NCBI RefSeq assembly: GCF_000759715.1
Contig: NZ_BBLU01000014.1
Location: forward strand, 62,001 to 126,000
Source: Demequina mangrovi
Lineage (GTDB): Bacteria > Actinomycetota > Actinomycetes > Actinomycetales > Demequinaceae
Length of the DNA stretch: 64,000 bases
Reading direction: 5' to 3'
How positions within the stretch are numbered: the first letter of the stretch is position 1; each line of letters begins with the position of its first letter. The translations under genes and the position numbers were made by a program. Below the pieces are notes generated by a model. The model made no database searches. It was not told the origin of the DNA and was given only the letters and a program-made list of their open reading frames with translations. Below, in pieces: positions 39,358 to 43,133 of the stretch.

Positions 39358-39714
39358 ATGACCTGCACGAACGACTGGCTGGCCGGCTACCTCAAGGCAT
39401 GGGAGACGAAGGCCGAGGACGACGTCCGCGCGCTCTTCACCGACGACGCGGAGTACTGGTTCCGACCGAACGACCCCGAACCGGTGCGCGGCATCGACGC
39501 GATCGTCGAGGCGTGGCAGGAGCCCGAGCCGGGCGTTCCCGTCCCCCGGCTGGCGGTCCTCATCGAGAACGAGCGGCTCGGCATCATCAAGGGCTCCGTC
39601 GACTATCCGGGGCACGAGACCTACACGAACCTGTGGGAGGTGTGGTTCGCCCCGGACGGCCGCGCGCTGAGGTTCGTCGAGTGGTACATGACGCCCCGCG
39701 CAGCGGGCTCTTGA
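39358..39714 (+). CDS. NTF2-like (SnoaL-type) protein
   Basis: 118 residues, single cone-shaped domain. WLAGYLKAWETKAEDDVRALFTDDAEYWF and the closing YTNLWEVWFAPDGRALRFVEWYM fit the SnoaL/NTF2-like pattern; ligand or activity unknown. It is preceded by a TAGAAA hexamer and a 9-mer repeat at 39327 and followed by a non-coding stretch with an imperfect GC-rich hairpin at about 39717-39738. Confidence 0.8.
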   Translation: MTCTNDWLAGYLKAWETKAEDDVRALFTDDAEYWFRPNDPEPVRGIDAIVEAWQEPEPGVPVPRLAVLIENERLGIIKGSVDYPGHETYTNLWEVWFAPDGRALRFVEWYMTPRAAGS

Positions 39715-40000
39715 GGGATCGCGCGCCGGCGCGATTCTCGTCGTGGCAGCCTGAGTGGGAAGCGCGCACCACTCATCTGCACGCCGACTCAAAGTCTCGT
39801 CTCCTGAAGAGGCGCTTCTTGTCTCAGGCGCAGGCGGTGGTGCTCGTCCACGGCGGCCTCGCCGGAGGCGAGTCCTGACGCAGCTGTGGTGAGCCCGCAG
39901 GTGCCGTGTGCGCAACGTCACCAGCGATGTGGTAGGCGAACACGCATCGGCGCAATAGCCTGCCCCTGTCCAACCTGCTAAACCATCTGGGGGAACCTTC
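39715..40000. other. Intergenic region before the lipoprotein cluster
   Basis: 286 bp without a gene. The left end holds an imperfect hairpin (TCGCGC / GCGCGA, about 39717-39738) that may terminate the SnoaL-type gene. The right end carries a G-rich ribosome site (GGGGGAA) 6 nt before ATG 40001. Composition becomes less GC-rich to the right. Nothing else is recognisable. Confidence 0.4.
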
Positions 40001-40651
40001 ATGCGTATCCGCGCTCTCGCCGCTGCTGCGGCGCTGACCTTCACTCTGGCCGCGTGCTCGTCCGCCGACGCTGACGACACCACGCTCGAGGCTGAGGCGA
40101 CCGAGACCGCCACCGTCGTCGAGACGACCGAGACGACCGCGACCGCGACCGCTGACGTCGACACCGTCACCGAGTCGCCCGAGCCTGAGCCGACCGAGGA
40201 GGCACCGTCGGTGGTCGCCCAGCTCGAAGCCGGCGAGGTCACCCTGACCGGTATCCCTGAGGACTGGACCGTCGCCGAGTCGCAGTTCGAGACGATGCTC
40301 CTTGAGGTGCAGTTCAACGCGTTCCCCACGGCGATCGGTTCGGCGTACGTCGCCGACGTCGCCGTCGGCGGTGACGCGAAGGCACAGGTCGAAGGTGCGG
40401 CGTACGGCATGTCCGGTGGGCTGGCCGACACGACCGACTACGTCGTCGAGTACACCGATGGCCAGGTGCCCGGCTACTACGCCTACGTGCCCGGCTCGGA
40501 GGACCCGCTGCTCAACGCCTTCGAGATCTACGCCTTCGACCACGGCGACGCGGTCATCGTCATCAGCGCGTCGTACATGGACGCTCTCGAGGCCGACGCG
40601 GACTTCTCCGCCACGCTCGCCGAGACCGCGCAGACCATCACGCTCGGCTAG
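40001..40651 (+). CDS. Secreted lipoprotein of unknown function
   Basis: 216 residues. Lipoprotein signal with lipobox LAAC (MRIRALAAAAALTFTLAAC), then a Thr/Glu/Val-rich linker of about 50 residues and a compact domain (VVAQLEAGEVTLTGIPEDWTVAESQFETML... to the C-terminus). No known family. The linker is similar in composition to those of the next two lipoproteins, but the leader differs. Ends at a strong hairpin. More A/T than surrounding genes. Confidence 0.8.
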   Translation: MRIRALAAAAALTFTLAACSSADADDTTLEAEATETATVVETTETTATATADVDTVTESPEPEPTEEAPSVVAQLEAGEVTLTGIPEDWTVAESQFETMLLEVQFNAFPTAIGSAYVADVAVGGDAKAQVEGAAYGMSGGLADTTDYVVEYTDGQVPGYYAYVPGSEDPLLNAFEIYAFDHGDAVIVISASYMDALEADADFSATLAETAQTITLG

Positions 40652-40666
40652 CCCCACACACCTACA

Positions 40667-40704
40667 CCTGCGGCCCGTCACCTCACCAGGAGGCGGGCCG
40701 CAGG
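40667..40704 (+). terminator. Terminator after the first lipoprotein gene
   Basis: 11-bp stem CCTGCGGCCCG / CGGGCCGCAGG with a 16-nt loop, 15 bp after the stop. Confidence 0.8.
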
Positions 40705-40755
40705 CACAATCCGAACCAGCGCCATCATCGGCGCACCACTGAGGGGAACACACGA

Positions 40756-41532
40756 ATGCGCCACACCATCACCAGACATGTGCCCGCGGTGCTCGCGGGC
40801 ATGCTGCTCATGACCGGCTGCGATGCGGCGGCCGAGGAGACCACTACCGCTGCGACGTCGGAATCGCCGGCCGCGACTGAGACCGTCACGACCGTCGACG
40901 CATCCGCATCCGCATCCGCATCCGCATCCGCATCCGCGACCGGGACCGCGACCGCGGAGCCGACCCCGGCCGTCGCGGACTGCTCCATCGAGTACGAGGA
41001 CGGCATGGAGCTCGTGCCTGGCGTGAAGATCACCGATCCGGACGCTGAGCGCGGGTACAAGCCTGAGATCCTCGAGGACACGCCTGCATACCTGCACGAC
41101 GGCGCATGGTGCGTCCTGGACACCACGGTCCCGTACAACGAGACCGTGATGGCGGAGTACTTCTACGACGACCCCGATCAGGGCATCTACGAGGCGAACT
41201 ATCAGACCGCCTACGCAGTCAGAGACCTCATGGGATGTCTGTTCTACGTCTATGACGACGCCGGCTCAGTCACCGGAGACCTGCGGTACGGCGCGAACCT
41301 CCTCTGGTACGCCAAGGCAGGTGATGCGACCGCGCAGCACGAGGACTTCCGCGACGCGACAAGCATCGCCCTCAACAACTGGAGGCCGATGACGGACTGG
41401 CACCCCTCGGTCGAGGTTGCGCTCACGTCGACACAGGACGTGGCAGATGCCCACCGCGATGAGATCGACTGCTACAACTACGACCTCACCGTCCCGATCG
41501 TCAACGTCGCAGACGACGGCAGCAGCCACTGA
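40756..41532 (+). CDS. Secreted lipoprotein with tandem hexanucleotide tract
   Basis: 258 residues. Lipobox MTGC in the leader (MRHTITRHVPAVLAGMLLMTGC), then the linker DAAAEETTTAATSESPA, which is identical in the following gene. An (Ala-Ser) run is encoded by six GCATCC repeats (40900-40935). The body (about residues 75-258) has four or more Cys and no recognised family: NYQTAYAVRDLMGCLFYVYDD, SIALNNWRPMTDWHPS. The leader and upstream GAGGGGAAC ribosome site are duplicated before the next gene, 12 bp downstream. Confidence 0.85.
   Translation: MRHTITRHVPAVLAGMLLMTGCDAAAEETTTAATSESPAATETVTTVDASASASASASASATGTATAEPTPAVADCSIEYEDGMELVPGVKITDPDAERGYKPEILEDTPAYLHDGAWCVLDTTVPYNETVMAEYFYDDPDQGIYEANYQTAYAVRDLMGCLFYVYDDAGSVTGDLRYGANLLWYAKAGDATAQHEDFRDATSIALNNWRPMTDWHPSVEVALTSTQDVADAHRDEIDCYNYDLTVPIVNVADDGSSH
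40900..40935 (+). repeat. (GCATCC)6 tandem repeat
   Basis: Six perfect copies coding for alternating Ala-Ser in the linker of the lipoprotein. The hexamer preserves frame, so copy-number changes would alter linker length only. Confidence 0.95.
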
Positions 41533-41544
41533 GGGGAAACACGA

Positions 41545-42312
41545 ATGCGACACGTCACCAGATACGTGCCCGCGGCACTCGCGGGCATGCTGCTCATGAC
41601 AGGCTGTGATGCTGCAGCCGAGGAGACCACGACCGCTGCGACGTCGGAGTCGCCGGCTCCCGGCGAGACCGTCACGGTCGCCGAAGCGTTCGCGAGCGCG
41701 ACGCCGTCACCGTCTGTCACCGCCGAGCCTGGTCCGGAGTGCCTGCCCACGGAGATCGACTGGACCGAGGACACGGACGGCTCGTACCTGGCGGGCACGT
41801 ACGTCGTCGCGAAGGACGGCATTCAGGACACCACTGCGCTGAAGCCTGACGAGCTCAACGGCGTCTCCGTCGCCCTGTGCGACGGCAAGTGGCTGATCGT
41901 CGACCCGACCGAGGACCTCCCTGAGGAGATCTGGGAGATGGCCTCGGTCGACCGCGCAGACACACTGGCGGACAGCAAGCGTGCAGCACTGATGGTGAAG
42001 AACCTTGAGATCTGCTCCGTCCGCGCGCAGCCCTACGGAACGGTGCCGCTGTCGTGGGGACCCCGCCTCAACGCGTGGCAGGCGAACTCCGAGTGGCGTG
42101 AGGCGAACTCCAAGGGGCAGGTGGGTGACAGCACTTTCTGGTGGTCCGTGACGGGCACAGGCGTGTACACGGCTCGCTCCTTGGGCGAGTTCGTCGACGG
42201 CGAGCCCGTCACCGTCAAGACCGCTGACGACGCGCTCGAGTACGCAAGGACATACGCGACGCCTGAGCTGTGCCTCAACTACGGCACCAACTACCCGACG
42301 ATCGTCAGATAG
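41545..42312 (+). CDS. Secreted lipoprotein, leader paralogue of the preceding gene
   Basis: 255 residues. Leader MRHVTRYVPAALAGMLLMTGC and linker DAAAEETTTAATSESPA match the previous protein almost exactly. The body after about residue 50 is unrelated or very diverged (LKPDELNGVSVALCDGKWLIVDPTEDLP, LNAWQANSEWREANSKGQ). A weak shared theme is an aspartate-rich, tryptophan-containing extracytoplasmic domain with Cys near the ends. No known family. The gene ends in a strong hairpin. Probably in one transcript with its neighbour. Confidence 0.85.
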   Translation: MRHVTRYVPAALAGMLLMTGCDAAAEETTTAATSESPAPGETVTVAEAFASATPSPSVTAEPGPECLPTEIDWTEDTDGSYLAGTYVVAKDGIQDTTALKPDELNGVSVALCDGKWLIVDPTEDLPEEIWEMASVDRADTLADSKRAALMVKNLEICSVRAQPYGTVPLSWGPRLNAWQANSEWREANSKGQVGDSTFWWSVTGTGVYTARSLGEFVDGEPVTVKTADDALEYARTYATPELCLNYGTNYPTIVR

Positions 42313-42322
42313 TCGTGACGCC

Positions 42323-42357
42323 AACGCCCTGGTCACCGTCGTGGTGACCAGGGCGTT
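42323..42357 (+). terminator. Terminator of the lipoprotein pair
   Basis: 14-bp perfect stem AACGCCCTGGTCAC / GTGACCAGGGCGTT with a 7-nt loop, followed by GTG and T-containing DNA. Confidence 0.9.
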
Positions 42358-42365
42358 GTGCTGTG

Positions 42366-42500
42366 TCAGGCGGTGAGCAGGGGCAGCGTCTCGGTGAGGT
42401 CGAAGGGGATGGTGACGAGGGAGCCGGTGCTCTCGGATCGGGCGGTCAGGCGGGCCACGCCGAACGAGTCGGTGACGGACAGGATGCGCCGCCCCCGAGA
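42366..42500 (-). pseudogene. C-terminal fragment of an unidentified gene beside tRNA-Lys
   Basis: An open frame on the minus strand ends at TGA 42366-42368 and reads RRILSVTDSFGVARLTARSE, then STGSLVTIPFDLTETLPLLT. Composition and codon bias look coding, but there is no start codon before the frame enters tRNA-Lys. It therefore looks like the 3' end of a gene truncated at the tRNA. No family assigned. Confidence 0.4.
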
Positions 42501-42501
42501 G

Positions 42502-42574
42502 TGGGCCCCGTGGGGCTCGAACCCACGACCTACGGATTAAAAGTCCGCTGCTCTACCGACTGAGCTAGAGGCCC
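42502..42574 (-). tRNA. tRNA-Lys (TTT)
   Basis: Minus strand. Acceptor GGGCCTC pairs with GGGGCCC (G-U tolerated), D-arm AGCTCAGTCGGTAGAGC, anticodon loop CTTTTAA with TTT, T-loop TTCGAGC, discriminator A. CCA is not encoded. It flanks the lipoprotein block and a gene fragment, so it may be an integration site. Confidence 0.93.
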
Positions 42575-42584
42575 GCCGACCATG

Positions 42585-43133
42585 TTAGTCAGCCCGGCGG
42601 CGCCCCTCTGCCGCCGAGTCGCCGAGAGCGAGGACGATGCCCGCCGCGAGGGCGCCCAGGAAGGCGCCGGCGGTGTTGAGGATGATGTCGTCGACGTCGG
42701 CCACGCGGCCCAGCAGGTACTGGGTCGACTCGATCGCGGTCGACAGCGCCGCCCCCAGGAACGTCGCCGTCAGCACCCGCAGCACGAAGCCTCGCTGGGT
42801 CAGGAGCGCGACCACGGTGCCGAACGGGAGGAAGAGCACGATGTTGCCCACGAGATTGAGCCACGGCTCGCGCGCGCCGGTGGTGATCGCGCGCCGGATC
42901 TCCTGGCCCGGATCGAGGTTGACGCCGCCCGTGCCCGGGTCGTGCGTCACGAGCGTGAGGCCGATGGTGATCCACCCGATCACCGCGAGGCACGTGAGCA
43001 GCGCGACCCACAGCGCGGTGCGACGCCCGTGGCCGAAGAGCGCGCCGAGGCCCCAGGCGATCAGCACGAGCACACCGCCGATCAGCGCGATCGGGAGCGC
43101 CATGCCGGCCTCCTCGTACCGCAGCATGGGCAT
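42585..43133 (-). CDS. VanZ-family membrane protein
   Basis: 182 residues, four to five membrane segments. The VanZ core is NLVGNIVLFLPFGTVVALLTQR and STAIESTQYLLGRVADVDDIILNTAGAFLGAL, with the conserved Glu and Asp-Asp. In other systems VanZ gives low-level teicoplanin tolerance; a general envelope role is more likely here. ATG 43133 has AGGAGG 4 nt upstream; ATG 43103 with GAGGAGG is an equally credible alternative. Confidence 0.88.
   Translation of the reverse strand: MPMLRYEEAGMALPIALIGGVLVLIAWGLGALFGHGRRTALWVALLTCLAVIGWITIGLTLVTHDPGTGGVNLDPGQEIRRAITTGAREPWLNLVGNIVLFLPFGTVVALLTQRGFVLRVLTATFLGAALSTAIESTQYLLGRVADVDDIILNTAGAFLGALAAGIVLALGDSAAEGRRRAD

Follow-up and report, generated by a model that had tools for sequence, protein, structure and literature searches.

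Tandem paralogues that have undergone partial gene conversion are adjacent homologues in which one stretch is far more alike than the rest. The arrangement nearest to the one described here is that of the Erp proteins (OspE/OspF/Elp) of Borrelia burgdorferi. In two papers, the promoter DNA, the leader peptide and the first mature residues of Erp are described as conserved and the mature domains as strongly divergent, with two genes at several of the loci. The leader is said there to have a single origin and the remaining frame many independent origins, and the erp genes are placed on cp32 prophages, at many loci (PMC10016077, PMC9060444).

The window analysed here, a stretch of 64,000 nucleotides from the G+C-rich genome (71%, 2.97 Mb, 33 contigs) of Demequina mangrovi, contains two adjacent genes, E and F, which are a modest instance of an already known type of event. 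Its composition, and the two best plasmid-collection matches of its MsrB, from Nonomuraea (63%) and Streptomyces (59%), fit an actinomycete. The likeness to Erp is that leader and first mature residues are common to E and F (30/31 residues), a sharing within the pair and not homology to Erp. The differences are that the Erp bodies are said to be of independent origin, whereas those of E and F are very probably remote homologues, and that Erp occupies many loci, whereas here there are two adjacent genes and no third strong leader match. Like tandem paralogues with partial conversion, E and F are adjacent and very probably homologous over their full length (on statistical, not structural, grounds). 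As to synonymous divergence, the leader dS is 0.40–0.45 against a body dS of 1.14, and the direct codon test gives only p = 0.08. Some other lipoproteins of the genus, namely that of the neighbouring gene D and those of loci L008, L011 and L012, likewise combine a cysteine-box export signal with an Ala/Thr/Glu-rich linker, but their leaders are not copies of the E/F leader. A brief literature search found no paper on such a shared-leader arrangement in actinobacteria.

Both genes are present as the original prediction stated, and they lie on the plus strand. Gene E (40756–41532) encodes a predicted lipoprotein of 258 residues with cysteines at positions 22 (lipobox), 76, 119, 161 and 239, and gene F (41545–42312) one of 255 residues with cysteines at 21 (lipobox), 66, 112, 157 and 243. 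The leader of E (40756–40890), which comprises signal peptide, lipobox and first linker, is nearly identical to that of F (41545–41676), and the mature bodies follow at 40981–41529 in E and 41740–42309 in F. In E the lipobox reads LLMTGC (residues 17–22), preceded by a positively charged start and a hydrophobic core; a methionine at position −3 is allowed by the lipobox rule, though less usual. By these signal-peptide features we infer that E and F are bacterial lipoproteins, and lipidation is predicted.

The sequence CACTGAGGGGAA occurs exactly at 40737–40748 and again at 41527–41538, and these are its sole matches in the window with at most one mismatch (2 against 0.16 expected; at least two were found in 1/100 shuffles). 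It contains GAGGGG, which reads like a Shine-Dalgarno sequence and is the probable ribosome site of E in the first copy and of F in the second. The stop codon of E falls within the second CACTGAGGGG, as had been implied. Since only 12 nt separate the E stop from the F ATG, the two genes probably form one operon, and since the shared ribosome site overlaps the E stop codon, translation of F is probably coupled to that of E. A strong hairpin 3′ of F (42320–42361, plus strand; −37.4 kcal/mol, z −7.74) is a possible terminator of this putative operon, and another lies 3′ of gene D (40667–40704, plus strand; −33.1 kcal/mol, z −7.85) as a possible terminator there; both are missing from the output of the terminator scan, which demands a T run. 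No sigma-70 consensus promoter was found.

The shared tract begins 18–19 nt 5′ of both start codons and contains an ungapped direct repeat of 139 nt (40769–40907 and 41555–41693, 84% identical). Residues 9–39 of E are identical to F at 30/31 positions, with 90% nucleotide identity, while residues 76–258 agree at only 40/168 aligned positions (~24%), with 44% nucleotide identity. Counted in steps of 20 nt, 17–19 nucleotides are identical through 40849, 14 and 13 at 40869 and 40889, and 10, 5, 8 and 7 in the steps that follow, so that identity drops at about 40870–40930. With CACTGAGGGGAA exact in both copies, the near-identity that had been reported for this pair, from the ribosome site through the signal peptide into the first linker, is borne out. 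At about the place where the shared tract ends, the E linker carries a perfect CGCATC hexanucleotide array (40899–40937, plus strand; 6.5 copies), which is read in frame as Ala-Ser and is a likely site of length variation.

The occurrence of the motif upstream of E, with no gene ending there, had been taken as the trace of a third copy that lost its 3′ end. We find no sign of this beyond the motif itself: the 90-nt upstream flanks are alike at chance level (207/500 shuffles reach the score), and the 30 nt 5′ of the two CACTGAGGGG sites match no better than do 45 or 148 of 1000 stretches drawn at random from the window, depending on which of two scorings is used. A local DNA alignment continues a few bases past the motif, with two gaps, but similarity outside it is never significant, and we rejected the third copy. 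More simply, the repeat would have its left edge just 5′ of the ribosome site, with the E stop codon sitting in the second copy of that edge.

To the eye of BLASTP the bodies are little alike, as had been claimed, and the alignments cover short pieces only (best E = 0.007). Full-length comparison gives a different result. We aligned the two bodies under 24 settings that vary the matrix, the gap cost and the alignment mode, with 187 decoys of 190 residues and 300 shuffles each for comparison; the decoys are pieces of coding-like frames from the window and other loci, among them orthologues across genomes, and are hence not all independent. In 23 of the 24 settings only 0–5 of the 187 decoys reach the score against either body, with a shuffle z of 2.7–5.4, and in the remaining one (BLOSUM62, −13/−2, global) the signal is absent, 127 and 135 decoys reaching the score. 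A separate run of 1000 shuffles gave 3–12/1000 in five of six settings and 758/1000 in a similarly harsh global one.

The cysteines follow a parallel layout. Each protein has the lipobox cysteine and exactly four others, a number found in 17 of the 187 decoys, at offsets from the lipobox of 54, 97, 139 and 217 in E and 45, 91, 136 and 222 in F. The sorted offsets agree within 9 residues, and random placement comes equally close to E in about 0.10% of trials by the largest deviation and 0.15% by the summed deviation. AlphaFold2 run without an alignment gave models too poor for fold comparison (mean pLDDT 34.4 for E and 35.6 for F), and the C-terminal DNA of the two genes has one 9-mer in common, which is chance level. 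On the full-length scores and the four-cysteine layout, which are statistical and not structural evidence, the E and F bodies are with high confidence remote homologues, and we judged it unlikely that they are unrelated.

The leader and the body appear to have diverged for different lengths of time. Nei-Gojobori estimates are dN 0.015 and dS 0.40 for leader residues 9–39, a dS of 0.45 for residues 1–45, and dN 1.02 and dS 1.14 for the body. Of 300 bootstrap replicates using leader residues 1–45, 98% give a body dN above the leader dS, although the intervals overlap (leader dS 0.20–0.91, body dN 0.82–1.28), the leader being short. Where the leader residues are identical, the same triplet is used at 24/32 positions, where codon usage alone predicts 16.2 (p = 0.004), whereas in the body the count is 20/38 against 23.6 expected (p = 0.24), which is chance level; compared directly, the two fractions differ at p = 0.08. 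Together, a leader dS of ~0.4 against a body dN of ~1.0 and the codon counts indicate that the leader probably came to be shared after the bodies had split. Eight codons differ between the genes in residues 9–39, seven of them synonymously, whereas random changes would be ~70% nonsynonymous; this points to a leader kept under purifying selection since the two genes came to share it. Without any conversion, a low leader dS could also result from codon bias or from constraint on the start region.

These rates fit poorly with an ordinary duplication that has a single rate for leader and body, the outcome named in the original prediction as speaking against it, since a body dN of ~1.0 exceeds the leader dS of ~0.4. 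The differing histories of leader and body that it implies are supported, but the joining of the leader to unrelated domains is not. A cassette in which one export leader has been recombined onto unrelated bodies would explain a nearly identical leader on bodies 24% identical and the difference in rates; it is quite improbable in view of the body similarity in 23/24 settings and the parallel cysteines, and the genome has no third strong leader match, while the weak genus hits that were inspected have other leaders or none of the lipoprotein kind. We regard as scarcely credible that the leaders converged as an ordinary lipoprotein signal with a low-complexity linker: other lipoproteins do match weakly through signal and Ala/Thr/Glu linker, but the repeat starts 18–19 nt before the start codons and runs ungapped for 139 nt at 84% identity.

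The more serious alternative, which we nevertheless hold to be unlikely, is that the whole gene was duplicated at the age of the leader (dS ~0.4) and that the bodies alone diverged fast by positive selection, as in arms-race proteins, with no conversion. It accords with bodies that are alike along their length, requires no extra event, and gains from a leader dS interval that extends to 0.91 and from a codon-identity contrast of only p = 0.08. It demands, on the other hand, a body dN that is ~2.5 times the leader dS throughout the domain, with many indels besides, and the codons of identical body residues look saturated (20/38 against 23.6 expected). We consider it reasonably probable, instead, that an old tandem duplication was followed by later homogenisation of the 5′ ends, with purifying selection then acting on the leader. 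In this reading of conversion after duplication, E and F would be old tandem duplicates that belong to one operon and encode lipoproteins with four body cysteines. Their 5′ ends, from ~19 nt 5′ of the ATG through the first ~24 residues of the mature linker, would have been re-matched after the bodies had split, probably through gene conversion between the adjacent copies or because the leader of one gene was copied to the other. Purifying selection would have maintained the leader since then, and F would be translated in step with E via the ribosome site that overlaps the E stop. Both products would leave the cell through Sec, receive a lipid at the cysteine and be kept clear of the membrane by the Thr/Ala/Glu-rich linker.

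We searched for relatives of the pair with E or F queries in 44 genus, 47 family, 396 order and 394 class genomes (this genome counted), and with single bodies in 392 order genomes (E body) and 139 phylum genomes (F body); these sets share genomes, the larger of them being samples, and for some of them scoring was confined to the top six or eight candidates of each genome. This genome gave seven matches to the query at E ≤ 10, of which E and F are the only strong ones and the other five are weak (E 0.007 to 6.6). The further leader copies with other bodies that had been anticipated did not appear, there being no third strong match in the genome and the genus matches that were read having other leaders. 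No convincing relative of either body emerged from the genus, with 43 genomes besides this one, or from the family, order, class and phylum samples, as far as these were scored, and none of the other genomes searched carries E or F.

The databases gave a similar picture. Genome-contig, viral-contig and plasmid collections contained no E/F relative, Pfam and NCBIfam no family at the curated cut-off and PADLOC no hit for either gene; the best PHROGs matches had E values of 0.064 (E) and 0.23 (F), and a PDB profile search gave no relative up to E 10. The weak hits go back to the composition of signal and linker, to a short DG-W-D stretch or to fragments of other proteins. Among the leader-like ones, L008, L011 and L012 are lipoproteins with leaders unlike that of E/F, L013 is not a lipoprotein frame, and L021, a lipase-like lipoprotein, has a signal with 82.5% DNA identity over 40 nt; L017, L019 and L022 were judged by their alignments, which cover signal and linker, and L003–L007, L018, L023 and L024 were left unread. 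So were two body hits, L100, which has stops inside, and L102, of 54 residues. The match of L020 to F residues 38–187 (E 3.1e-4) has its body portion inside a 502-residue ORF on the minus strand, presumably a phosphotransferase.

In three genomes (L026, L027 and L099) the body profile or the F body matches 29 to 72 residues at 33–48% identity, centred on the DG-W-D stretch and covering at most about one third of the body. We take the three proteins to be one transglutaminase-like family, so that their matches are not independent. A Pfam scan of E and F at E ≤ 10 listed no transglutaminase-like domain, and we set the matches aside as chance; the F body may nonetheless have a distant tie to transglutaminase-like proteins. 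The segment LKPDELNGVSVALCDGKWLIVDPTEDLPE of the F body (41842–41928) is 45–48% identical over 29 residues in two of these genomes and lies within the longer 33% match in the third.

In the window, E and F are preceded by a gene at about 37561, which we take to encode a sigma factor, a probable membrane-anchored protein (38160), gene C (39358–39714), a small protein that is presumably SnoaL-like, and lipoprotein D (40001–40651), directly before E; they are followed on the minus strand by tRNA-Lys (42501–42574) and a presumably VanZ-like gene (42585–43133). Gene D was considered as a further member of the E/F family and rejected, its body showing no match to those of E and F (shuffle z 0.6 and 0.1). 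D does have a distant relative elsewhere in one genus genome (L015, 27–30% identity).

The genus set comprises 43 genomes besides this one, and in ten of them we compared the corresponding region. None of the ten has E or F (tblastn, E ≤ 0.01), save for one weak linker-type hit in L098. Gene C is present in eight, on the 3′ side of tRNA-Lys, at a distance from it that ranges from zero in G042, where the C stop codon abuts the tRNA, to ~7.45 kb in G006; various genes fill this interval, which measures 2.8 kb in the window. The E/F pair thus occupies a variable slot (39715–42500) on the 3′ flank of tRNA-Lys. The third-position G+C of E and F is 0.85, against 0.88–0.97 in eight measured neighbours, and with the absence from the ten regions and the varied spacing this suggests that the pair may have come in recently. 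A search for a duplicated tRNA end as the scar of an integration, allowing 3 mismatches over 23 nt, gave none. Between F and the tRNA, a stop-ended open frame of 44 residues on the minus strand (42366–42500) reaches the 3′ end of tRNA-Lys; it had no match in the examined loci outside this genome and is perhaps the remnant end of a lost gene. The G006 version of the slot contains a frame (L090, 7731–8435) that resembles a piece of a transposase, presumably of the IS256 type.

The bodies are small, exported, cysteine-rich for their size and, in these searches, present in one genome only; as a guess, they might be species-specific domains for binding or shielding at the cell surface. The pair is a compact case in which leader and body keep different evolutionary clocks, and a caution that bodies that look unrelated to BLAST may still be homologues. 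If the linker is truly constrained in its amino acids, a sorting or modification step acting just past the lipidated cysteine would be the thing to look for. We think it rather improbable that the leader works as an export module that recombines, being copied again and again to surface domains as they diverge, while a dedicated sorting or glycosylation step fixes its exact amino-acid sequence in signal peptide and linker alike; if this were true, E and F would be a chromosomal counterpart of Borrelia Erp in an unrelated bacterium.
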